Origin: Alphaproteobacteria bacterium | GTDB lineage: Bacteria; Pseudomonadota; Alphaproteobacteria; UBA2966 | Assembly (NCBI GenBank): GCA_030740435.1 | Contig: JASLXG010000091.1 | Location: 1-33,269, forward strand | DNA: 33,269 bases | Direction: 5' to 3' | Shown: positions 1,190 through 17,306 of the stretch, piece after piece | Position numbering within the stretch: position 1 is the stretch's first letter | Layout of the letters: the number at the start of each line of letters is the position of its first letter | Program-made: the position numbers and the translations under genes | Notes under the pieces: generated by a model | The model's database searches: none | Told to the model about the DNA's origin: nothing | What the model saw: only the letters and a program-made list of their open reading frames with translations

Positions 1190-2353
1190 CAGCCTGATCG
1201 CCGGCACGCCGCCTCGCCGGTCGCGCCACCACCAGCCAGCGACGTCGCGGCGTAGCGCCAGGTAGGCGGCGAACGAGGGCCGGCCGGCGCGCCAGAGCCG
1301 CCATTCCATGCCAAAGGGCAGAGGCCAGAGCAGGAAGACCAGAGCCTGTATCAGGCGGCTGCCGACCCAGCCGGGCCGCGGGTAATCCCAGGCCCGGTAC
1401 TTGTCGGCCAGCAGCGTTCGTATTCTCAGGCGGTCGAGGGGGCTATAGAGGCCGTCGGGCGCAGCCGCCATCGTCCCCCGGAAGCCGGCCGCCAGGGAGC
1501 CGTCGGTCGAGACCTGGGCCCAGGGCCGGCCGTCGAAGGTACTTTCCAGCAAGGCCTCGTGCCAAGGCAAGTCCAGCCAGGCGCAGATTTTCTCGATGGT
1601 TTGGCGGGGCTCCGCGTGCAAGTCTTCCAGACGCACGCCGCGGCAGTTGGCCTCGTCCCACTGGGCCAGGCGATCGAGGTCACCGGCGGTCAATTTCGGG
1701 GCCCTGGTGGACCTGAGGTTGCGGGCACCGCTGAAGATCGGCTTGGCGTGGTAGATGCTGCGGATCAGGGCCATTGCCGCCAGGTCCGGGGCCGGGCCGT
1801 CGCGCTCCCAGGCCAGGCGGAACCAGGACGCCATGGCCGCCAGGGGCTCGCGCAAGCTGTGCAGGAACCTGAGATCATTGCCGAAATCCTCCAACAGGCC
1901 GTCGACCGCGAAGATCAGCGGATTGTGGGCCTGGAAGACGATCCAGGGGCGCTGCGAGGCAAAGTCCCGGCCCTGGGCCTCGGCGTAGGCGGCGAAGACG
2001 GCCTGGAAGAAGAATTTGCGCGGCGCGGGCTGGTCCTCGAAATCGGGCCCGTACGCCCGCAGATGAGCCTCCAGGGCCGCCGCGAAGGTCTCTCGGGCCA
2101 CCCCCCAGTGGTCCGCCGCGGGCTCGAAAAGGGCGCCGTAGCGGTCACAAAAAGCCCTCACCTGGGCCGCTGCCGGCCGCGCCGCCACGCCGTCCCAGAA
2201 GGGGTAGAAATCGTGCAGGTGCTCGGCCGGCACGGTCAGCACGTCGGGGTGGGAATCGAAAAGGCTTTGCAAAAAGACCGAGCCCGATCGGCCGTAGTAG
2301 AAGATGGCGACGACCCGCTCGAGGGTGCCGGGATCGATCGGCCGGCCGCTCAT
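1184..2353 (-). CDS. Sulfotransferase family protein
   Basis: A 389-residue cytoplasmic-type protein of the PAPS-dependent sulfotransferase superfamily. The 5'-phosphosulfate-binding loop is at residues 19-36 (YYGRSGSVFLQSLFDSHP), and a later LHSLREPLAAMASWF segment fits the 3'-phosphate-binding region. The acceptor cannot be told from sequence. The frame is open further upstream, but the ATG at 2353 is chosen because it overlaps the stop of the ACR3 gene as ATGA (2350-2353), a typical translational coupling. Coupling of a sulfotransferase to an arsenite pump is not a standard arrangement, so cotranscription may not mean common function. A C-terminal hydrophobic segment (ALVFLLWPLPFGMEW) could associate with the membrane. 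Confidence 0.8.
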   Translation of the reverse strand: MSGRPIDPGTLERVVAIFYYGRSGSVFLQSLFDSHPDVLTVPAEHLHDFYPFWDGVAARPAAAQVRAFCDRYGALFEPAADHWGVARETFAAALEAHLRAYGPDFEDQPAPRKFFFQAVFAAYAEAQGRDFASQRPWIVFQAHNPLIFAVDGLLEDFGNDLRFLHSLREPLAAMASWFRLAWERDGPAPDLAAMALIRSIYHAKPIFSGARNLRSTRAPKLTAGDLDRLAQWDEANCRGVRLEDLHAEPRQTIEKICAWLDLPWHEALLESTFDGRPWAQVSTDGSLAAGFRGTMAAAPDGLYSPLDRLRIRTLLADKYRAWDYPRPGWVGSRLIQALVFLLWPLPFGMEWRLWRAGRPSFAAYLALRRDVAGWWWRDRRGGVPAIRLL

Positions 2354-3402
2354 GGCGGGTTGGCCAGCCCGCGCCGCACCGAGGGCGCGCTTTCGTACCA
2401 GGCCCGGCTGCCATTCACGATGCGCACCACCGAGAGCATCACCGGCACTTCGATGAGCACGCCGACCACGGTGGCCAGCGCCGCCCCGGATTCGAAACCA
2501 AACAGGCTGATGGCCGTCGCCACCGCCAACTCGAAGAAATTGCTGGCGCCGATCAGGGCCGAAGGCCCGGCCACGCAATGGGCCTCGCCGCTGAGCCGGT
2601 TGAGCAGATAGGCCAGGCCGGAATTGAAGTAGACCTGGATGACGATGGGTACGGCCAGCATGGCGATGATCAGGGGCTGGTTCAGGATCTGCTCGCCCTG
2701 GAAGCCGAAAAGCAGCACCAGCGTGGTCAACAGCGCCAGCAGCGAGAGCGGCTGCAAGCGCCCCTGCAGCCGCGCCAGCGCCGCCTCGCCGGCGGCGATG
2801 GAACGCCGGCGCAAGGCCTGGGCCAACAGCACCGGCACGACGATATAGAGCCCCACCGAGAGCAACAGCGTCTGCCAGGGCACGGCAATGGCGGAAAGGC
2901 CGAGCAAGAGCGCCACGATGGGGGCGAAGGCAAAGACCATGATGATGTCGTTGAGCGCCACCTGGCTGAGGGTGAAGTGGGGCTCGCCGTCACAGAGGTT
3001 GGACCAGACGAAGACCATTGCCGTGCAGGGCGCGGCGGCCAGCAGGATGAGGCCGGCGATATAGCTCTCGAGCTCCGCCGTCGGCAGGTAGGGGGCAAAC
3101 AGGCCGGCGATGAAAAGCCAGCCCAAAAGCGCCATGGAGAAGGGCTTGACGGCCCAGTTGATGAACAGGGTGACGCCGATACCGCGCCAGTAATCGCGCA
3201 CCCGATGAAGTGCCCCGAAATCGATCTTGACCAGCATGGGCACGATCATCAGCCAGACCAGTCCGGCCACCGGCAGGTTGACCTGGAAGGCCTCGGCCGC
3301 GGCGATGAGGCGAAACAGCCCGGGAAACAAATTACCCAGCGCCACCCCGGCAACGATGCAGAGAGCAACCCACAGGGTGAGAAAACGCTCGAAAATCGAC
3401 AT
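2350..3402 (-). CDS. acr3: ACR3-family arsenite efflux permease
   Basis: A 350-residue inner-membrane protein with about ten hydrophobic segments, matching ACR3 carriers, which extrude arsenite (sometimes antimonite) using the proton gradient. The diagnostic AAAPCTAMVF with conserved Cys126 in TM4 is present. So are the late ASNFFELAVA segment with its glutamate and the closing VVGVLIEVPVML stretch. No arsR, arsC or other ars gene is beside it. The promoter would lie between this gene and the DUF4340 gene end at 3425, which leaves only 22 bases, so it may be read through from the ABC export genes upstream. The downstream partner is the sulfotransferase, coupled by a 4-base ATGA overlap. Confidence 0.9.
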   Translation of the reverse strand: MSIFERFLTLWVALCIVAGVALGNLFPGLFRLIAAAEAFQVNLPVAGLVWLMIVPMLVKIDFGALHRVRDYWRGIGVTLFINWAVKPFSMALLGWLFIAGLFAPYLPTAELESYIAGLILLAAAPCTAMVFVWSNLCDGEPHFTLSQVALNDIIMVFAFAPIVALLLGLSAIAVPWQTLLLSVGLYIVVPVLLAQALRRRSIAAGEAALARLQGRLQPLSLLALLTTLVLLFGFQGEQILNQPLIIAMLAVPIVIQVYFNSGLAYLLNRLSGEAHCVAGPSALIGASNFFELAVATAISLFGFESGAALATVVGVLIEVPVMLSVVRIVNGSRAWYESAPSVRRGLANPP

Positions 3403-8278: not shown

Positions 8279-9211
8279 CTATTTCGTCCGCACGCCCTGA
8301 GGATCGAAATTCAGCTCCAGCACCCGCCAGGCGGCGAACTGGCCGGCCGGCATTTCATAGGGCGAGCAACGCATGACAGCGCGCAGCGCGCGGTCGGCGG
8401 TGGGCAGGAACAGATCACTGCCGGCCTGGCTGCCGGTGTTGCGGCTCAGCACCTGGGGCGTGCTCCTGAGGTTGCCGTCGCGGCGCAACTTCACCCGCAC
8501 CTTGATCACCGGCTGGCGGGCCGCGCCACTGCCCGGCGGCGCCTGCCAGCAGCCGCTGACCTGCTGGCCCAGCGCCTTGGCCAGGGCGCCCTGCGGCACG
8601 CTGCTCTGGGCCGCGGAGCTCTGGGCCGCCGGTGCCGGGGCACTCGAAGCCCGGGCCTGGGGCGCGGCCCGGACCTGCGGCGCGGCCTGGGCCGGGGGTC
8701 TGGCCCTGGCCCTCGCCCCTTTCATGACCTCCGACATGCCACCGCCCAGGACGGCGGCACCGGCCATCTCGGCGGCACCGCCGACGATTTCCTCGAAGGC
8801 GCCGCGCAAACGGCTCAGCATGCGCCGCATCTGGGCCTGGTTGCCATCATGGTAGAGCTCCTTGCGGGCCACCTTGGTATCGCCGTCGTAGTCAAAATTA
8901 TCGACCAGCACCTTGGCGCCAAGGGGGCCGAGCAGAACGCTGAACAGCAGCGTGTCCTTGCCGCCGGCCTGGGCCTTGACGTCGGCGGTATCGAAGACGA
9001 AACGGAAAAAGCGGGTGATCTCGGCAACCGTCAGATGGTCGTCGCCGGTGACGTCGACCAAGGTCCAGAGATCGCTCTCGCAGTTCGCCTTGCCGGCTTC
9101 GCAATCGGCGATCAGGCGCTCGAAGTCGCTCGCCATGGCGGCTTTGGCGCCACTTGGCAACAACAGCACCAGAAACAGCGCCGAGGCCATGGCAACGGCT
9201 TTCCCGGTCAT
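8279..9211 (-). CDS. Secreted EF-hand protein with TolA-like C-terminal domain
   Basis: A 310-residue exported protein of unusual architecture. Residues 1-24 are a signal peptide (hydrophobic ALFLVLLLPSGAKA). Two canonical 12-residue EF-hand loops follow, D53-E64 (DVTGDDHLTVAE) and D107-E118 (DYDGDTKVARKE), which should bind Ca2+. Residues about 165-208 are an Ala/Pro/Gln/Arg/Ser linker. Residues about 212-308 look like the C-terminal domain of proteobacterial TolA: CW near 221, VRVKLRRDGNL, RALRAVMRCSPYEMP, and a final AWRVLELNFDP, with Cys221 and Cys282 placed for the family disulfide. The start at 9211 is chosen for its GGAGAAG ribosome-binding site, and an upstream in-frame start adds 12 residues with no signal. 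It lacks the long helical TolA domain II, so it is not a normal TolA. A calcium-responsive envelope role is inferred. Confidence 0.75.
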   Translation of the reverse strand: MTGKAVAMASALFLVLLLPSGAKAAMASDFERLIADCEAGKANCESDLWTLVDVTGDDHLTVAEITRFFRFVFDTADVKAQAGGKDTLLFSVLLGPLGAKVLVDNFDYDGDTKVARKELYHDGNQAQMRRMLSRLRGAFEEIVGGAAEMAGAAVLGGGMSEVMKGARARARPPAQAAPQVRAAPQARASSAPAPAAQSSAAQSSVPQGALAKALGQQVSGCWQAPPGSGAARQPVIKVRVKLRRDGNLRSTPQVLSRNTGSQAGSDLFLPTADRALRAVMRCSPYEMPAGQFAAWRVLELNFDPQGVRTK

Positions 9212-9290
9212 CGTCTTCTCCTTTTGCCCCGCCGCCTCTTTTAGCACATTTCGCGGCCCTGCCGTCAGGCGCCATCGGCGGCCCTCGGTT

Positions 9291-9746
9291 TTACCCCAAT
9301 CGATAGCGAAAATCGCAACACGTCCCGCCGCTCATCAGCGTCTCGCGCCGCTCGAAGGCGACGCCCATGCCCTCCGCCATGGGCTCGTCGGCGCGACAGG
9401 CCAACAGGGGCCCCAGCTCTCGGGCCCCCAGCTTTTCCAGATGTTCGGCGTAGGCACAGCGCCGCACGTCGAAGCCGAACTCCGTCTCGTCCTCGCCCAG
9501 CGTTTGGTATTCAAGGGCGCCGCCCGCAGCAAAGGCTTCGACGCCGCGCTGCATGCTTTGGCGGTCGACCCGGCCGGCCGCCGCCAGGCGTTCGCCATGG
9601 GCCCGCGCCTCGGCATCCAGCACCTCGGCCACCAAGGCATCGGCCGTGGCCTCGCCGAGCTCCGCCCTGAGACGGCGCAGCAGCGGCACCAGCAGCGCCA
9701 TCTGGGCTTTGAAACGATCGAACTGGGTGAAATTGCTCTCGGCCAT
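9291..9746 (-). CDS. L-2-amino-thiazoline-4-carboxylic acid hydrolase family protein
   Basis: A 151-residue soluble protein resembling the ATC hydrolase family, which is named for an enzyme opening the thiazoline ring on the way to L-cysteine. The family marks seen are a helical N-terminal half, the central FGFDVRRCAYAEHLEKLGARELGPLLACRAD region (quoted in two parts: FGFDVRRCAYAEHL and LGPLLACRAD), and the terminal SGGTCCDFRYR. Many family members are uncharacterised, so the exact reaction is open. The ATG at 9746 is favoured over one eight codons upstream because GGAGGG precedes it. It diverges from the Mo-oxidoreductase operon across a 259-base region. Confidence 0.7.
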   Translation of the reverse strand: MAESNFTQFDRFKAQMALLVPLLRRLRAELGEATADALVAEVLDAEARAHGERLAAAGRVDRQSMQRGVEAFAAGGALEYQTLGEDETEFGFDVRRCAYAEHLEKLGARELGPLLACRADEPMAEGMGVAFERRETLMSGGTCCDFRYRLG

Positions 9747-10005
9747 TGTCGCCCTCCGCCAACTCTTCAATTTGCCAAGCGTCAGTTCAGCCTAGCGTAT
9801 TTCAGGATTGACAAGAAATGCGGCGGTTCGAAAACCGTGATTTTATTGGCCAAACCCGTCCGCGACAGTTTGCCGCAGGACACCTTGTCGCATTGTGATT
9901 CCCCGCTTTTTGCCGAAATATCCCCCTGCGATTCCCAGAAACTTTATCGCGCTTGCGCTCGCGCTAACGCCGCGATCGCACTTCAACAACGAACGGGAGC
10001 GGGTG
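9747..10005. promoter_or_regulatory. Divergent intergenic region upstream of the Mo-oxidoreductase operon
   Basis: These 259 bases separate the leftward ATC-hydrolase-like gene from the rightward operon, so they should hold both promoters. A TTGACA hexamer lies at 9808-9813 on the plus strand, but the base 17 positions on begins a poor -10 (AAAACC). A small hairpin, CGGTT-CGAA-AACCG, is at 9824-9837. I found no convincing FNR-type TTGAT-N4-ATCAA site. The region is more AT-rich than its surroundings. Confidence 0.4.
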
Positions 10006-10758
10006 ATGTCGTCCACCACAACAGAGAAACGACTTTCTCGCCGCGACGCTTTGCGAGGAGCCGGAGCCGGCGCGGTTGCCGCGACGGTGATTGCGGCCAC
10101 GCCTCGCCAGGCCTCGGCGGCCGCCACGTCGAAACCCCACTTCGGCATGGTCATCGATACCCGGCGCTGCATCGGTTGTCATTCGTGCTCGGTAGCCTGC
10201 AAGGCCGAGTTCGACACCCCCTTGGGGTACACCAGGTCGTGGGTCGAATACGTCGAGAAGGGCAATTTTCCCAATGTCAGCCGGGCCTTCCTGCCCCGGT
10301 TGTGCAACCACTGCTCGGATCCTCAATGCGTCAGCGTCTGCCCCACCGGGGCGACCTGGAAGCGCGACGAGGACGGTATCGTGGTGGTCGACGCCGAGGT
10401 TTGCATCGGCTGCAAGTACTGCCTGCAAGCCTGCCCCTACGACGCCCGCTTCATCAATCCCATCTCGGGCTCCGCGGACAAGTGCGATTTCTGCCTGCAC
10501 CGCACCACCAAGGGCACGGCACCGGCCTGCGTCACCACCTGCATCGGCCGGGCCCGGGTGTTCGGCGACCTCAACGATCCCTCGAGCGAGGTGGCCCGCC
10601 TGATTGCCGGCAACAACGTCACGGTGCTGCGCAAGGACATGGGCACCAAGCCCAACGTCTACTACATCAACGCCGATCATTCCGACGAAGCGGACGCCCG
10701 CCATTCCGGACAATACATCCGGGTGACGACGCATCGCCGCGAGAAACAGAGGAGGTAA
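10006..10758 (+). CDS. TAT-exported 4Fe-4S subunit of PsrB/TtrB/NrfC type
   Basis: A 250-residue electron-transfer subunit. It opens with a twin-arginine signal (LSRRDALRGAGAGAVAA, residues 10-26) ending near QASA (about 35-38), so it should be exported folded. Sixteen cysteines in four groups (55/58/61/65, 100/103/108/112, 133/136/139/143, 160/163/175/179) fit four [4Fe-4S] clusters, as in PsrB, TtrB and NrfC. It should pass electrons between the NrfD-type membrane subunit and the Mo catalytic subunit encoded next. The ATG at 10006 puts the TAT motif near the N-terminus. A longer frame back to 9895 adds residues with no family character. A TAT signal on the Fe-S subunit itself is typical of TtrB and NrfC rather than DmsB. 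Confidence 0.88.
   Translation: MSSTTTEKRLSRRDALRGAGAGAVAATVIAATPRQASAAATSKPHFGMVIDTRRCIGCHSCSVACKAEFDTPLGYTRSWVEYVEKGNFPNVSRAFLPRLCNHCSDPQCVSVCPTGATWKRDEDGIVVVDAEVCIGCKYCLQACPYDARFINPISGSADKCDFCLHRTTKGTAPACVTTCIGRARVFGDLNDPSSEVARLIAGNNVTVLRKDMGTKPNVYYINADHSDEADARHSGQYIRVTTHRREKQRR
10751..10755 (+). promoter_or_regulatory. Ribosome-binding site overlapping the end of the preceding gene
   Basis: GGAGG sits within the last codons of the Fe-S subunit gene, just before its TAA (10756-10758) and five bases before the ATG at 10761. It decides the NrfD-type start and suggests coupled translation. Confidence 0.85.
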
Positions 10759-10760
10759 TC

Positions 10761-11726
10761 ATGACAGAGGGATTGACCTGGGGGTTTCCCGTCATCGCCT
10801 ATCTGTTCTTGGCGGGTTTGGGTGCCGGGGCGCTGACGGTCAGCGCTTCGATGTTCCTGCGGGGCGGAGATCCGCAACGCGGTATGCACGTCGATACGGC
10901 ACGCTACGGAGCCTTTCTGGCGCCCGTGCCGATCATCATCGGCTGCGGCTTCCTGATCTTGGAACTTGGGTCGTTCGAGGCGGGGCATATGTTCCGCTTC
11001 TTCAACCTCTACCTGGTGATGAACTTGTCGCCGATGTCGGTCGGCACCTGGTTGCTGACGGCCTGCATCATCATCAGTCTGGCCTATGCCTACACCTATC
11101 TGAAGGAGGCCCCGGGCCTGACGCAGGAGCAGCGCTACACCTGGCGCCGCCTGCTGTCCTGGATCGCCATTCCCTTCGGCATTGCCACGGCGGTCTATAC
11201 CGGCATCCTGCTGGGCGCCATGCCGGCGCGGCCTTTTTGGAACTCGCCCATCCTGGCCATGCTGTTCCTGCTGTCGTCGCTGTCGACGGGGGTGGCGGCG
11301 ATCCTGCTGCTGCGCGCGCTGTTCCCCTCGAACCGCTTCGATCCCGAGACCGAGCGCCAGTTCAACAACTCGGGCTACATCCTGACCTCCACGGACACCA
11401 TGCTGATCGGCTTCGAGTTGCTGGTGATCTTCCTCTTTGTGATGTTCGCGCACCTCACGGTGGGTAACGTCAAGGAGGCGGTCAGCGTGATCCTGGCGGG
11501 CGGCCAGTTGGCCAACTGGTTCTGGTTCGGCGTGGTCATCGTCGGGCTCTTGCTGCCGGCCCTGATCGAGCTCTACTACGTGATTCCCAGATTGGTCTTC
11601 CACGGCGAGTTCGTGGCGCCGCGGGGAATGGAGATCGTGGTTCCGATCGCCATCCTCATCGGTGGCTTCATGCTGCGCTACGTGGTGGTCGTAGCCGGTC
11701 AGATTACCGGCCCGATCGGGCTCTAA
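10761..11726 (+). CDS. NrfD/PsrC-type membrane subunit
   Basis: A 321-residue inner-membrane protein with about eight hydrophobic segments. It belongs to the NrfD/PsrC/TtrC family, which exchanges electrons with the quinone pool and anchors a periplasmic Fe-S/Mo complex. The opening FPVIAYLFLAGLGAGALTVS is characteristic (quinol-site region in PsrC), and ARPFWNSPILAMLFLLSSLS is also family-like. No haem-binding CXXCH is present. It lies between the Fe-S and catalytic subunit genes, giving the B-C-A order found in ttrBCA. The ATG at 10761 follows a strong GGAGG. A much longer open frame upstream, back to 8913, is an artefact of GC-rich DNA. Confidence 0.9.
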   Translation: MTEGLTWGFPVIAYLFLAGLGAGALTVSASMFLRGGDPQRGMHVDTARYGAFLAPVPIIIGCGFLILELGSFEAGHMFRFFNLYLVMNLSPMSVGTWLLTACIIISLAYAYTYLKEAPGLTQEQRYTWRRLLSWIAIPFGIATAVYTGILLGAMPARPFWNSPILAMLFLLSSLSTGVAAILLLRALFPSNRFDPETERQFNNSGYILTSTDTMLIGFELLVIFLFVMFAHLTVGNVKEAVSVILAGGQLANWFWFGVVIVGLLLPALIELYYVIPRLVFHGEFVAPRGMEIVVPIAILIGGFMLRYVVVVAGQITGPIGL

Positions 11727-11737
11727 AGGAGGCTGCT

Positions 11738-14257
11738 ATGTCTACGCGAAGAGATTTCCTGAAGCTCGGTGCCGCGGCAACGACGGCGGCGCTGGCAACG
11801 GGAGGCGTCTTGACTGCCCAAAGCGCCTCCTTTGGTGAAGGCAAGGACTACTCGCCCCAGACCGGACGGGAACGCCAGCCCGTGCCGTCGACCTGCTGGC
11901 AGTGCGTCTCACGCTGCCCCATCGTCGGCTACGTCGAGAACGGCCGCCTGGTCAAGATCGAAGGCCAGCCCAACTCGATCCGCACCGAGGGCAAGATCTG
12001 CGCCAAGGCCCAGGCCGGGGTCAACCAGGTCTACGATCCCGACCGCATCCTCTATCCCATGCGCCGCGTAGGCCTTCGTGGCGAGGGCAAGTGGAAGCGC
12101 GTGAGCTGGGACGAGGCCCTGACCGAGGTTGCCGGGCGCTTGAAAAAGCTGCGCGACGACGGCCATCCGGAAAAATTCATGTTCCACTACGGACGCATGA
12201 AGGCCTCATCGTCGAAGCTGATCAAGAGCGTGTTCCTGGCCAATTACGGCACCAGCACCATCGGCAACCACACTTCGATCTGCGAAGGCGGAAAGTGGAC
12301 GGCGCAGGAGCTGACCTGGGGGTCGCACTATGACAACTGGGACTTCGACCACACCAAGTTCGTGCTCAACTTCGGCTCCAACTGCCTCGAGGCCCACACC
12401 AACCACACCGCGGTGGCCCATCGCCTGGCTCGGGCCATCGTCGACCGCAACGTGCGTATGGTGAGCTTCGACGTCAGGCTTTCCAACACCGCCGCCAAGT
12501 CGAGCGAGTGGGTCCCCGTCAAGCCCGGCACCGACGGTGCCGTGATGCTGGCCATGTGCAACGTCATCATGGAAGGCGGCCTCTATGCCGGCGAGGGCGA
12601 GGACTTCCTGCAATTCGTCAAGGTGACGAAGGGCCCGAACCCCCCGGTGGCCGACAAGATCGCGGCCCTCAAGGCGCACCTGGCCCAGTACACGCCGGAA
12701 TGGGCGGAAAAGCAAAGTGGTGTCCCGGCCAAGATGATCCGGGAAATAGCCGTCGAATTCGCCACCACCAAGCCGGCCGTGCTGATCACCTATCGCGGTG
12801 CCGTGGCCCACGTCAACGGCAACGACACCGAACGGGCGGCGCAAATGCTGGCTTCCATCACCGGCAACGTCGACAACCCGGGTGGGCGCTGCAAGGCCGT
12901 CGGCCCCAAGTGGAAATATCCCAAGGGCCCGAAAAAGAAGCCCAAATCGAAGAAGCTCAAGATCGTCGACGGCTTCAAGGGCCAGGCCAAGCTGCCGACC
13001 CATCACATGAGCCATCACGTGCTCAAGGTGATCAAGGACGGCAGCCAAGGGCGGCCCGAAATCTACATGTGGTACTGTTATGCGCCGGTCTATTCGAACG
13101 GCGATGTGAAGGAGAACATCGAGGTTCTCAAGGACGAGCCATTGATCCCCTTCACGGTCTGCGTCAATCCGTTCTACGACGAATCGGCGGCGCTGGCCGA
13201 CATCATCCTGCCCGACGCCACCTACCTCGAGCGCTGGGATTGGGAGGACATGGTGTCACCGGCACAGATCCCCGAGTACTACATCCGCCAACCCATGGTG
13301 AAGCCACTGGGCGAGGTTCGGGATTTCGCCGACGTCACCTGCGAACTGGCCGAACGCATGGGCTTCCCGCTGGGCATCAAGAACAAGGAGGAGTTCGTCA
13401 AGGCCTCATGCGAAAAGACCAAGGCGGTGAAGGCCGCCGGCGGCTTCGAATTCATTCGCAAAGCCGGCGTCTTCAGCGAAGCCGGCGCCCATCCCAAGTA
13501 CTTCTCGTACCGCAAGACCGTGAAGCCCGAGGCCTACGAGCATGATGGTGTCATCCTCGACCAGGCCACCGGCGTCTACTGGAACTGGAAGAAGGCCAAG
13601 GTCAAGTCCGAGGAAGAAGCCCGGGCCAAGGGTTATGCCCACACCAAGAAGTCCTACAAGGCCTACGTCGGCCAGCGTATCGGCGACAAGGTCTACAAGG
13701 GTTTCAAGCCGGACAAGGTGAACAAGTCGGGCTTCATGGAGCTCTACTCCGAGATCATGGAGGACAAGGGTCTGAATCCCCTGCCCATCTACCGGCCCAT
13801 CGCCGAGCACCAGAAGATGGGCCAGGGCGAGCTCATCCTGACCACCTTCAAGGTCAACGTGCAGGTCCATTCGCGGACACAGAACTGCAAGTGGCTGACC
13901 GAGATCTATCACGACAATCCGGGTTGGATTAACCCGGCCACGGCCGCCGGCCTGGGCATTGGCCATGGCGACAAGATCAAGGTCACCTCGGAGATCGGCG
14001 AGATCGAGACCAAGGCCCACGTCACGCCCGCGGTGGTACCCGGCGTCATCGCCATCTCCTTCCACTGCGGACACTGGGAATACGGACGCTACGCCTCGGG
14101 CAAGAAGTCGCCCGTCGGCGCCAAGGATCCCAGTGACAAATTCAAGTGGTGGTCCAGCAAGGGTGAGCACCCCAACTGGATCATCCCCAACCGGCCCGAT
14201 CCCATCAACGGCCAGCAGGCCTGGATGGATACCGTGGTCAAGGTGGCCAAGGTCTAG
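11738..14257 (+). CDS. Molybdopterin oxidoreductase catalytic subunit (PsrA/TtrA/ArrA-like)
   Basis: An 839-residue TAT-exported Mo-bisMGD enzyme of the DMSO-reductase superfamily. The signal MSTRRDFLKLG begins the protein. Cysteines 53, 56, 60 and 88 (CX2CX3CX27C) bind the [4Fe-4S] FS0 cluster. NHTSICEGGK places Cys182 as the likely Mo ligand, as in the polysulfide/thiosulfate/arsenate branch rather than Ser (DMSO reductase) or Asp (NarG). Later blocks (GNVDNPGG near 376-383, ADIILPDATYLERWDWED near 487-504) fit the molybdopterin domains. A lysine-rich insert at 391-408 (KWKYPKGPKKKPKSKK) is unusual. The length is close to ArrA/ArxA and shorter than TtrA. The substrate, and the direction of catalysis, cannot be read: sulfur oxyanions, polysulfide or arsenic oxyanions are all possible. 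AAAGGAGG precedes the ATG. Confidence 0.85.
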   Translation: MSTRRDFLKLGAAATTAALATGGVLTAQSASFGEGKDYSPQTGRERQPVPSTCWQCVSRCPIVGYVENGRLVKIEGQPNSIRTEGKICAKAQAGVNQVYDPDRILYPMRRVGLRGEGKWKRVSWDEALTEVAGRLKKLRDDGHPEKFMFHYGRMKASSSKLIKSVFLANYGTSTIGNHTSICEGGKWTAQELTWGSHYDNWDFDHTKFVLNFGSNCLEAHTNHTAVAHRLARAIVDRNVRMVSFDVRLSNTAAKSSEWVPVKPGTDGAVMLAMCNVIMEGGLYAGEGEDFLQFVKVTKGPNPPVADKIAALKAHLAQYTPEWAEKQSGVPAKMIREIAVEFATTKPAVLITYRGAVAHVNGNDTERAAQMLASITGNVDNPGGRCKAVGPKWKYPKGPKKKPKSKKLKIVDGFKGQAKLPTHHMSHHVLKVIKDGSQGRPEIYMWYCYAPVYSNGDVKENIEVLKDEPLIPFTVCVNPFYDESAALADIILPDATYLERWDWEDMVSPAQIPEYYIRQPMVKPLGEVRDFADVTCELAERMGFPLGIKNKEEFVKASCEKTKAVKAAGGFEFIRKAGVFSEAGAHPKYFSYRKTVKPEAYEHDGVILDQATGVYWNWKKAKVKSEEEARAKGYAHTKKSYKAYVGQRIGDKVYKGFKPDKVNKSGFMELYSEIMEDKGLNPLPIYRPIAEHQKMGQGELILTTFKVNVQVHSRTQNCKWLTEIYHDNPGWINPATAAGLGIGHGDKIKVTSEIGEIETKAHVTPAVVPGVIAISFHCGHWEYGRYASGKKSPVGAKDPSDKFKWWSSKGEHPNWIIPNRPDPINGQQAWMDTVVKVAKV

Positions 14258-14271
14258 CCGCCGCGGCGTTT

Positions 14272-14308
14272 GGTGGGTCCGGGAGCCTTCCCGGGCCCAC
14301 CTTTTTTT
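14272..14308 (+). terminator. Rho-independent terminator of the Mo-oxidoreductase operon
   Basis: A 13-base-pair GC-rich stem with one G-U pair (arms GGTGGGTCCGGGA and TCCCGGGCCCACC), a short loop and seven T residues. It begins 14 bases after the catalytic-subunit stop and should end the three-gene transcript, leaving the TorD-type gene with its own promoter or dependent on readthrough. Confidence 0.9.
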
Positions 14309-14355
14309 GCCCCCTGCCCTTCCCAGCGACCGCTCGGCGGACCTATCATTCGGCC

Positions 14356-15000
14356 ATGAAAAACGACGAGCCGGCCCACATCGCCGCCCAGCGCGCCAAT
14401 CTCTACGGCTTCCTGGCCACCCTCTTTCGCGCCGAACCCGATGTCGAGCTGATTCACCGGCTGGCCGATGCCGACTACATCACGCTGCTGCGCGCCGCCG
14501 GAGCCGATCTCGAGGCCGCCTACTTCCAGCGTCCCGAGGCCGAGGTGCTGGAGGAACTGGCGGTCGAATACACCCGCCTCTTCATCGGCCCGGGCAAGCA
14601 CGTCTCGCCCCACGCCTCGGCCAACATGCCCAACGAAGGCGGCACGCTGTGGGGCCGGAGCACCAGCGACGCCGTGGCACGGATCCGCGAGGCCGGCCTC
14701 GACTACGACCCCGACTACCATGGCCTGCCCGATCACGTCAGCGTCGAGTTCGAGCTCATGGCGGCGCTGGCCGGCCGCGAGGCCGAGGCCTGGCGGGCCG
14801 GCGAGGAAGAGGCGGCACTGAGCCAGCGCCGACTCCAGGCCTCGTTCATCGAGGAACATCTGGGCCACTGGCTACCCGAATTCTGCCGCCGCATCATCGA
14901 GCAGGCGGAGCTGGCGCTCTACGGCGAGATGGCCAAGCTGACAGCCGCCTTCCTCGAAGCCGAACGCGCCGACCTGGCGGGCGAAAGCGGCGCCGGCTGA
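14356..15000 (+). CDS. TorD/DmsD-type molybdoenzyme chaperone
   Basis: A 214-residue all-helical cytoplasmic protein of the TorD family. These proteins bind the TAT signal of a Mo enzyme and hold it until the cofactor is inserted. Family marks are EYTRLFIGPGKHVSPHAS (about residues 72-89), GLDYDPDYHGLPDHVSVEFELM in the middle with the PDH-(I/V)-S-X-E-(L/F) motif, and a helical C-terminus. It almost certainly serves the catalytic subunit encoded just upstream. The start codon has no clear Shine-Dalgarno sequence. Its TGA (14998-15000) directly abuts the stop of the convergent radical SAM gene. Confidence 0.85.
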   Translation: MKNDEPAHIAAQRANLYGFLATLFRAEPDVELIHRLADADYITLLRAAGADLEAAYFQRPEAEVLEELAVEYTRLFIGPGKHVSPHASANMPNEGGTLWGRSTSDAVARIREAGLDYDPDYHGLPDHVSVEFELMAALAGREAEAWRAGEEEAALSQRRLQASFIEEHLGHWLPEFCRRIIEQAELALYGEMAKLTAAFLEAERADLAGESGAG

Positions 15001-16170
15001 TCAGCGCCGGGAAAGGTCCGCCGCCAGGGCCTGGGCCCGTGGTGCGGCGTGGGCGAAGAAGCGGCGGTAGGAGGGGCAGAGGTAGCTCAAGGCACCGCCG
15101 CCGCCGTCTTGGGCCACGAAACGGTGCTTCGGACAATCGCCGCCACAGTGCGCCAGATGCGCACACGCCCGGCAAGCGGCCGGCAACCCGGTCTCCTTGG
15201 CGGCCCCGAAGCGGCACTGCCCCGGGCTCGCCGCCAATTCTGCGAAAGAGCGTTCAGTGACGTTGCCCAGCCGGTGTTCGGCATCGACGTAGTGGTCGCA
15301 GGCATAGAGATCGCCGTTGTGCTCGAGAGCCAGCGCCCGGCCGCAGCGGGCGGCGTGGACGCACTGGCCGGGGGGCGCGCCGAGGAAGTGGCCGACCAGG
15401 GATTCGAACGCCATGACGTAGGCCCGGCCCACGTCGCGGCCCTGCCATTCGTCGAACACGGCCGCGAGGAAGCGCCCGAAGCCCTCGGGCGGTACCGACC
15501 AGGGCGCGATTTCCGTTGCCTCCTTGCCGGGCAACGCCAGGGTGCCGTCGGGCCGCAGGCGTTCGACCAGCGGGATGAACTGCATGACCTCGACGCCGGC
15601 GCGCCGCAGGAAGCGGTAGATGCGCCGGCCCTCGCGCACATTGCCGCGATGTACCACGGTCAGGGTGTTGACCGCGACGCCGCGCTCAAGCATCAGGTCC
15701 AGGGCGCGCCGCGTGCGTTCAAAGGTGGGCCGGCCCTTGCGGTCGCGGCGGTAGCGATCCGTCAGCGTCCGCGGCCCGTCGATGCTGAGTCCCACCAGGA
15801 TGCCGGCCTGGGCCAGATAATCGGCCCAGGCCTCGTCGATCAGGCTGCCGTTGGTCTGCAGCGAATGTTCGAGCCCCACGCCGGCGGGGCGGATGCGCTC
15901 GGCCAACTCGACGGCGCGGCGCAAAAAGTCGAGCCCGGCCAAGGTCGGCTCGCCGCCCTGCCAGCAGAGCTGCACGTTGCCTGCCGAGCCATCGAGAATA
16001 CCGCGCAAAAAGGCCTCCAGCACCGGCTCCGGCATGAGCAGCCGGGCCGGCTTGGGATAGAGGGTTCGCTTGGCGGTATAGAAGCAGTAATCGCAATCGT
16101 AGTTGCAGGCCGGCCCCACCGGCTTGACGATGACGTGCCAGCCCGCTGCCGGGTCCGCAGGCAGTTTCAG
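15001..16170 (-). CDS. Radical SAM/SPASM enzyme, anaerobic sulfatase-maturase (anSME) type
   Basis: A 389-residue protein if it starts at CTG 16170. CNYDCDYC (Cys22, 26, 29) is the radical SAM CX3CX2C cluster motif, followed by WQGGEPTL and LQTNGSLID. The C-terminal SPASM domain has CGRALALEHNGDLYACDHY, CRACAHLAHCGGDCPKHR and YLCPSYRRFF, matching anSMEs that convert Cys or Ser to formylglycine in sulfatases. No sulfatase is in this window. No ATG or GTG precedes the essential cluster within the frame. Only TTG codons about 60 codons upstream, inside the acyl-CoA dehydrogenase gene, or CTG codons are available. CTG at 16170 overlaps the upstream TGA as CTGA, with GGGAG just before it, and aligns with the usual anSME N-terminus. 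The maturase family is clear, but the target is unknown. Confidence 0.8.
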   Translation of the reverse strand: MKLPADPAAGWHVIVKPVGPACNYDCDYCFYTAKRTLYPKPARLLMPEPVLEAFLRGILDGSAGNVQLCWQGGEPTLAGLDFLRRAVELAERIRPAGVGLEHSLQTNGSLIDEAWADYLAQAGILVGLSIDGPRTLTDRYRRDRKGRPTFERTRRALDLMLERGVAVNTLTVVHRGNVREGRRIYRFLRRAGVEVMQFIPLVERLRPDGTLALPGKEATEIAPWSVPPEGFGRFLAAVFDEWQGRDVGRAYVMAFESLVGHFLGAPPGQCVHAARCGRALALEHNGDLYACDHYVDAEHRLGNVTERSFAELAASPGQCRFGAAKETGLPAACRACAHLAHCGGDCPKHRFVAQDGGGGALSYLCPSYRRFFAHAAPRAQALAADLSRR

Positions 16171-17306
16171 AACTCCCGCAAACGCGCGAAGCGGTCGCGG
16201 TGGAAGGCGGCGTCGCCGAAGCTCTGCTGGGCCACCCGGGCGCGCTTGAGGAAGAAGCCGATCTCCTCCTCGTCGGTCATGCCGATGCCGCCGTGCAGTT
16301 GCACCGCCTCGCTGGACACCAGCTCGAAGGCGTCGCAAAGCTTGGCCTTGGCGCAACTGGCCAGCTCGGCCACGTCGCCCCGGCCGGCATCAAGGGCATC
16401 GAGGCCCTCCATGACGATGGATTTCGAGAGCTCGATCTCGTTGAACATCAGGGCCGCGCGGTGCTTCAGCGCCTGGAAGGAGCCGACGGGCACACCGAAC
16501 TGCTGGCGCACCTTGAGATATTCGATGCTGCGCTCGAAAGCCTCGGAAATGCTGCCCAGCATCTCGGCCGAAAGCGCGATGCGGGCCCGGTCCAGGAGAT
16601 CGTCGAGCAGCCCGGCAGCGCCGCCGATCTCGCCCAACACGGCCTCGGGCCCCACAGTGACGCCATCGAATGAGATACGGGCGGCGTTGCGGCTGTCGAC
16701 CATCATGGTCCGGGTGCGTTTGATGCCAGCGGCGTCGGCCGGCAGTAGAAACAGCGACACGCCCTCGTCGTCGGCCGGGCCGCCGGCCGTGCGGGCCGCC
16801 ACGATGAGTCGGTCGGCGACGTGGCCATCAAGCACGAAGCGCTTCTCGCCGCTGATCCGGAAGCCGCCGTCGACCGGCCCGGCCCGGGTGGCGACATGGC
16901 GGGGGTCGTGGTGCGCTCCCTCCTCGTGGGCCAAGGCCAGCAACAACTCGCCAGCGGCCACGGCCGGCAGCAATTCACTCTGTTGCGCGGCCGAGCCGCC
17001 CAGTTGCAGCGCCGCCGCCCCGATCACCGCCGTGGCCAGCAGCGGCGTGGCGGCCAGGGTGCGCCCTGATTCTTCCAGCACCAGGCCCATGGCCAGATAG
17101 CCGAGCCCGGAGCCGCCGTATTCCTCGGCCACCAGGATGCCGGCAAAGCCGAGCTCCGCCATGTCGCGCCACAGCGCCGGCGAATAGCCCAGCGCATCGC
17201 CCTCGTCGCGCAGCGCCCTGAGCGACGCCACGGGCGCCTCCGCGGCGAAAAAATTGTGCGCCGTGTCCTTGATCAGGACCTGTTCCTCGTTCAGTACCAA
17301 GGCCAT
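16167..17306 (-). CDS. Acyl-CoA dehydrogenase (second of a pair)
   Basis: A 379-residue FAD-dependent acyl-CoA dehydrogenase. It has the helical N-terminal domain, the EEYGGSGLGYLAMGLVLEE stretch, a mid beta-barrel (FRISGEKRFVLDGHVADRLIV), and the C-terminal helical domain with RQQFGVPVGSFQALKH and AVQLHGGIGMTDE. It introduces an alpha-beta double bond into an acyl-CoA and passes electrons to ETF. The start at 17306 is preferred to one ten codons upstream because it matches the family N-terminus and is preceded by GGTGGGG. It follows the first dehydrogenase by 13 bases. Paired genes like this often encode alpha2beta2 enzymes acting on steroid side chains or other bulky acyl-CoAs, which is an inference here. 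Confidence 0.9.
   Translation of the reverse strand: MALVLNEEQVLIKDTAHNFFAAEAPVASLRALRDEGDALGYSPALWRDMAELGFAGILVAEEYGGSGLGYLAMGLVLEESGRTLAATPLLATAVIGAAALQLGGSAAQQSELLPAVAAGELLLALAHEEGAHHDPRHVATRAGPVDGGFRISGEKRFVLDGHVADRLIVAARTAGGPADDEGVSLFLLPADAAGIKRTRTMMVDSRNAARISFDGVTVGPEAVLGEIGGAAGLLDDLLDRARIALSAEMLGSISEAFERSIEYLKVRQQFGVPVGSFQALKHRAALMFNEIELSKSIVMEGLDALDAGRGDVAELASCAKAKLCDAFELVSSEAVQLHGGIGMTDEEEIGFFLKRARVAQQSFGDAAFHRDRFARLREF

Follow-up and report, generated by a model that had tools for sequence, protein, structure and literature searches.

Environmental arsenic cycling is surveyed through the marker genes aioA, arxA and arrA, as passages of PMC10060404 illustrate. Among the arsenic enzymes, ArrA and ArxA have a catalytic subunit of about 840 residues, exported by the twin-arginine translocation (TAT) pathway and carrying a Cys-ligated molybdenum bis-molybdopterin guanine dinucleotide (Mo-bisMGD) centre; it is paired with a four-cluster subunit B, and the genes run A-B or arxB2ABCD. 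The genes of tetrathionate reductase run B-C-A, and PhsA and PsrA share an NrfD anchor. The locus compared here with these systems is a B-C-A-D operon in an alphaproteobacterial contig of lineage UBA2966 (assembly GCA_030740435.1, JASLXG010000091.1, positions 1 to 33,269); this whole stretch of 33,269 nucleotides is called the window. The operon's probable product is an arsenic-oxyanion:quinone oxidoreductase, periplasmic and anchored to the membrane, that represents a lineage apart from Aio, Arx and Arr. Its features are as follows.

10006 to 10758, + strand: B, predicted TAT-exported electron-transfer subunit with four [4Fe-4S] clusters (250 aa; 16 Cys; PF13247)
10761 to 11726, + strand: C, NrfD-type membrane anchor and quinone subunit (321 aa; PF03916, 149.6 bits)
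11738 to 14257, + strand: A, catalytic Mo-bisMGD subunit with a TAT motif (839 aa; PF00384, PF01568, PF04879)
11894 to 12001, + strand: FS0 cluster motif in A, CX2CX3CX27C (Cys53, 56, 60, 88)
12194 to 12331, + strand: active-site stretch of A, from alignment (Arg153...His178-Thr179-x-x-Cys182-Glu183-x-x-Lys186...Tyr198)
14356 to 15000, + strand: D, TorD-family chaperone (214 aa; PF02613, 89.6 bits)

The four genes are separated by 2 (B/C), 11 (C/A) and 98 (A/D) bases, and D is conserved as a neighbour of A in relatives. B carries the TAT motif SRRDAL and its 16 Cys fall into four groups; A carries TRRDFLKL and the Pfam domains Molybdop_Fe4S4, Molybdopterin and Molydop_binding. C has multiple hydrophobic segments and is 321 aa long from its ATG, or 323 aa if the GTG at 10755 is the start. 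A regular-expression search upstream of B found no sigma-54 consensus. The initial annotation had reported the B-C-A order with a TorD chaperone, TAT signals on two subunits, the FS0 spacing, a Cys (182) at the Mo-ligand position and a catalytic subunit of 839 residues, and each of these held up. The periplasmic, quinone-linked architecture that it proposed is consistent with the TAT motifs and the NrfD subunit.

No curated family claims A, which agrees with the earlier impression that no named family fits. Among the NCBIfam families listed, its highest score is with PhsA (NF012032; 355.2 bits, cut-off 694); it reaches 326 bits with DmsA/YnfE (TIGR02166; cut-off 777.7), 203.6 with ArrA (NF041714; curated cut-off 1600) and 124.2 with TtrA (NF011567; cut-off 1750), and it lies far under the cut-off of every one. 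TIGR02693 (arsenite_ox_L) has four matches in the window's own genome (E ≤ 1e-10), A not among them, and is not among the 25 families listed for A. The Mo-ligand column holds Cys in 81 of the 82 family rows of the multiple alignment (Cys182 in A), whereas the DmsA ligand is Ser. B scores best with TtrB (222 bits, cut-off 416) and among the families listed exceeds the cut-off only for DsrO (209.5 against 200 bits), which is read as a general four-cluster hit.

Phylogeny gives the same picture. In an IQ-TREE maximum likelihood tree of 31 rows, 30 of them drawn from the 52 of a quicker tree, A falls in a 17-row clade of its own (100/99, ultrafast bootstrap/Shimodaira–Hasegawa-like approximate likelihood ratio test, UFBoot/SH-aLRT). 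The sister of this clade is the Azoarcus KH32C type (98/98). ArrA and Arx-type rows form a separate clade (100/100) and PhsA and PsrA a separate branch (99/98); TtrA-like and DmsA rows also lie outside, and the 52-row tree agrees. A therefore nests in none of the characterised clades sampled, TtrA-like and ArrA rows included, as the proposal of a new enzyme had implied. Among the reference rows, ArrA (L094; 1742 bits) and Proteus PhsA (1293 bits, taken from a plasmid record) exceed their cut-offs, and the TtrA-like rows (1327–1389 bits) are under theirs of 1750. Two Arx rows (L097, L098) were assigned by gene context, a sensor set followed by A and B, rather than by name, and a third (L106) by its place in the tree; the Shewanella ArrA and Thermus PsrA rows are fragments from PDB matches. 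A search of 200 genomes with the PhsA model gave no match.

The resemblance of the gene order to ttrBCA, pointed out in the initial annotation, is real but not specific to ttr, as the Azoarcus KH32C relative shares it. B is TtrB-like, yet A differs from tetrathionate reductase in its length (839 aa against 1033–1092 aa in TtrA-like reference frames), its TtrA score and its separate clade. A tetrathionate reductase, as the gene order would suggest, was rejected, since KH32C has B-C-A as well and TtrA-like rows stand apart from the window clade in the tree. The molybdoenzyme of Azoarcus sp. KH32C plasmid pAZKH is closer, with the same B-C-A-D order and 40% identity over the full length. It differs from the window in an adjoining AioX-type sensor set and ars operon, and in four downstream genes (h1–h4) that have no match in other loci.

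Arsenic rather than sulfur oxyanions is favoured because of an AioX-type pocket sensor in relatives, an arsenic island in the sister lineage and an ArrA-like fold. Sulfur, arsenic or similar oxyanions had been left open as substrates, and these three lines narrow the choice toward arsenic. Many of the operons have as neighbours a histidine kinase, a sigma-54 response regulator and a periplasmic protein that resembles phosphonate-binding proteins; the kinase and/or the regulator adjoins the AioX-type sensor in relatives. Scores of 226 bits to NT-26 AioX, 141 to ArrX and 43 to PtxB mark this periplasmic sensor as an AioX orthologue. According to portions of PMC5908839, AioX and ArxX bind arsenite in a pocket of Tyr88, Cys106, Tyr131, Ser161, Ser163, His192 and Asp210, and for the other anions tested there, including antimonite, thiosulfate and tetrathionate, binding was not observed. 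All seven pocket positions are kept in 20 of the 25 AioX matches (with Thr replacing Ser163 in 7 of them): those of 18 loci, with both copies of L037, plus that of KH32C (L091). The remaining five are L062 (Ser106, Gly210), L083 and L086 (Gly106), L058 (truncated at the contig end) and L038 (a fragment). A full-pocket sensor lies within about 6 kb of the enzyme in 18 of 79 relatives' loci; these neighbourhood counts use 79 of 82 loci, L030, L047 and L071 having been dropped because an overlapping frame was picked. In a tree of periplasmic binding proteins (PBPs), from which eight duplicates or fragments were left out, AioX and Arx-type sensors are interspersed with those of gammaproteobacterial loci, Sedimenticola, Neptunomonas and KH32C (20 rows, SH-aLRT 85). 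Most sensors of this group keep an LTPVFL-like loop, the hydrophobic residues of which are linked to arsenite-bound AioX in sections of PMC5908839.

In the sister lineage, the KH32C operon follows arsC-arsD-arsA-acr3 and a regulator-kinase-sensor set. A second genome (G638), the A of which is 81% identical to that of KH32C, has a sensor set, B-C-A, D and h1–h4, after which another sensor set accompanies an Arx-type cluster; further on come a third molybdoenzyme, arsR, arsC and acr3, the whole island spanning about 34 kb. The third molybdoenzyme (L113, 16093–18546) is followed by a B subunit and is under all cut-offs, with PhsA as its best model (254 bits).

The AlphaFold model of A (26 sequences, pLDDT 86, pTM 0.88) has Shewanella ArrA as its first match in both Foldseek and VIA-align. 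VIA-align gives Z 39.7 for ArrA (694 residues, 2.6 Å), followed by NapA (Z 36.1), and Z 33.5 for PsrA. A common fold with ArrA, here seen in a predicted model, is no proof of a common substrate. Across 26 aligned rows, Cys53, Cys56 and Cys88 of FS0 are invariant, as are Arg153, His178, Thr179, Cys182, Glu183, Lys186 and Tyr198. Arg153 and Tyr198 share columns with ArrA positions 165 and 210 (our numbering), which hold Arg and Tyr, respectively, each in 80 of 82 rows; ArrA R165, K198 and Y210 presumably have active-site roles. A Gly-Arg motif is common to A, ArrA and Arx-type rows and absent from PhsA, PsrA, TtrA-like and DmsA rows. A thus resembles ArrA and ArxA in its length, TAT motif, Cys-ligated centre, four-cluster B, best fold match and Gly-Arg motif, and some of its relatives also have the XSR-type sensor set; it differs from them in its separate clade, its ArrA score (203.6 of 1600 bits) and its B-C-A-D order.

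Several observations weigh against an arsenic substrate, and they begin with A itself. Its PhsA profile score is higher than its ArrA score (355 against 204 bits). In the multiple alignment the column of ArrA Lys198 holds Trp187 (80 of 82 rows) and Lys186 lies one residue off; a pairwise alignment pairs the two lysines through a one-residue gap. The trees, moreover, contain no reference rows for AnrA, SoeA, SrdA, SrrA or SreA. The PhsA score, together with Thermus PsrA as the best PDB sequence match, raises the alternative of a Psr/Phs-kind enzyme for polysulfide, thiosulfate or another sulfur oxyanion, in which the arsenic genes would be incidental or the sensor would serve a sulfur ligand too. 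Several carriers also bear sulfur-cycle genus names (e.g. Sedimenticola, Thiodiazotropha, Desulfobacula and Desulfocapsa), and the NrfD anchor is shared. This alternative is nevertheless unlikely: PhsA and PsrA occupy their own branch outside the window clade, the PhsA score is half of its cut-off, PsrA is the weaker fold match, and the Gly-Arg motif is absent from both.

The sensor evidence has gaps of the same bearing. The window's own genome has no AioX orthologue (best match 25 bits). Where a locus extends 6 kb or further to each side (20 loci), a full-pocket sensor is present in only 7 and any AioX match is missing from 11; the latter include the window's near kin L013, L018, L023, L024, L064 and L081. 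Desulfobacterota sensors form another group of the PBP tree with a different loop. The PhnD-like sensor of the Neomarinimicrobiota loci L083 and L086 has Gly in place of Cys106, a feature of PhnD too, and because of this replacement these members may sense another oxyanion. At E ≤ 1e-25, AioX is matched in 28 of the 299 genomes sampled from the phylum, and 16 of these 28 belong to a single genome family (f188). The f188 proteins keep the seven pocket residues although no molybdoenzyme adjoins them in the five loci examined (L137–L140, L144); the two of these loci that were annotated have a hybrid kinase or PAS/kinase genes beside the PBP, and the f188 proteins are a separate clade in the PBP tree (99). 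Pocket residues alone are therefore no proof of arsenic, and a place in the AioX/ArxX group counts more.

Since the window's genome and its near kin lack the sensor, arsenic might be handled only by the sensor-bearing members, the window's subgroup having shifted to another substrate. Such a shift is distinctly improbable. Sensor-bearing L037 and L048/L056 share an eight-row subclade (100/99) with the window, the active-site residues are invariant across the 26 rows, and the sensor-less alphaproteobacterial B-C-A-D locus L023 has arsR-arsD-arsA downstream of torD.

Arsenic genes are otherwise scarce. Only 4 of 83 family loci have them nearby (L023, L069, L034 and the window), and this scarcity also counts against an arsenic substrate; those of L023 and the window speak for one, though the link is suggestive only. 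The count leaves out a 42-aa acr3 fragment in L047 (57%, sub-threshold) and, in L024, a weak match (27%) to an ArsK-like transporter. The gene in the window is possible context outside the operon:

2350 to 3402, - strand: ACR3 arsenite efflux transporter (TIGR00832, 362 bits, cut-off 282.8)

It lies 6.6 kb upstream of the operon with other genes between, and is 68% identical to the KH32C ACR3. Pumps of the acr3 type also export Sb(III), and the tree has no AnrA row, so an enzyme for antimony oxyanions, such as a relative of the antimonate reductase AnrA, has to be considered. It is very unlikely, given that the enzyme of the sister lineage is surrounded by arsenic genes and an Arx-type cluster.

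For an arsenic-oxyanion:quinone oxidoreductase, we infer the substrate of the window copy, the direction of catalysis, the quinone link and export as follows. D would mature A prior to TAT export, and A would bind the oxyanion at its Cys-ligated Mo-bisMGD centre. Two electrons would pass from A through FS0 to the four clusters of B, then to the NrfD-type C and the quinone pool, which arsenite oxidation would feed. Arsenite oxidation is the best guess for the window organism; reduction of arsenate, or catalysis both ways, is only slightly less likely. The slight preference comes from the sensors of the window's subclade, which are more like AioX/ArxX than like ArrX. In many Desulfobacterota loci, the presence of a NapC/NirT-type cytochrome would fit catalysis in the reductive direction. 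An unknown arsenite-oxidising enzyme has been argued for in Thioalkalivibrio, the proposal in the relevant part of PMC6620896 being a Soe-like protein without a TAT signal; the window enzyme differs from it because its A has a TAT motif.

Relatives are widespread and patchy. Among 84,980 species genomes scanned, 515 stretches encode a relative, not all of them in the window clade. The best 78 of these loci show 57–76% identity to A in the best segment; alignment at this level over most of the length, together with the 515 stretches, indicates that A is not a chance reading frame. Most of the best 78 derive from metagenome-assembled genomes of Rhodospirillales, Kiloniellales, Hyphomicrobiales, Gammaproteobacteria, Desulfobacterales, Nitrospirae, Nitrospinia and Neomarinimicrobiota; the named strains are Sedimenticola hydrogenitrophicus SB48 and Jhaorihella thermophila. 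Carriage is 1 of 15 genomes in the window's order and 5 of 385 sampled genomes in its class, the own genome counted in both, and this patchiness suggests horizontal transfer. There is about an even chance that the clade is a further lineage of anaerobic arsenic respiration beside Aio and Arx/Arr, spread horizontally through alpha- and gammaproteobacteria, Desulfobacterota, Nitrospirota, Nitrospinia and Neomarinimicrobiota and overlooked by current arsenic marker models because its members score far under their cut-offs. If the lineage does handle arsenic, marker surveys miss an enzyme group present in up to several hundred genome stretches. Unnamed Cys-type lineages basal or sister to known families appear in parts of PMC10100899 and might include the window clade; the clade is not named in the titles and abstracts of the open-licence PMC papers searched.

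Clustering of open reading frames (ORFs) from the 82 relatives' loci and the window resolves two main forms, B-C-A-D and B-A-D. A C-cluster gene is present in 37 sources, including the window. The B-A-D form lacks NrfD, and often a multihaem cytochrome of the NapC/NirT type (cluster 4, 26 loci) is encoded upstream of it. Several gammaproteobacteria have both kinds of unit in tandem: in L048, L054, L056, L072, L078 and L082, B-C-A is followed by a protein of 303–320 aa and then B-A-D, and the 303-aa representative of the middle protein has no Pfam match at 1e-6. In Thermomicrobium (L108), B and C look as though joined in one protein, the ORF of the Fe-S subunit (552 aa) matching the NrfD subunit as well, and in Natrinema (L109) an ORF of 607 aa annotated nrfD matches B.

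Two genes flanking the operon were rejected as parts of the system, neither having a match in the 82 relatives' loci. One (15001–16356, - strand) encodes a Radical-SAM/SPASM protein tail to tail with torD and scores 408 bits as an anaerobic sulfatase maturase (cut-off 349); the other (9291–9770, - strand), divergent from the operon, encodes a PF14196 (L-2-amino-thiazoline-4-carboxylic acid hydrolase) protein. In a Desulfobacterales contig (L050), a QrcB-like molybdopterin-fold protein (8556–11000) follows the window-type enzyme. This protein, L050_A8556, lies on the Arr side of the quick tree but was rejected as a second arsenic enzyme, its best model being QrcB (317 bits, cut-off 440) and the Cys ligand being absent.

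Elsewhere in the window's own genome (G000:C66, locus L153, 3397–9121), a small subunit of the Rieske type accompanies an AioA-family subunit (401 bits, cut-off 359), and two MauG-like di-heme proteins are encoded upstream. The AioA-family subunit was rejected as an arsenite oxidase on account of these neighbours and of the layout, which resembles that of the iodate reductase IdrABP1P2.

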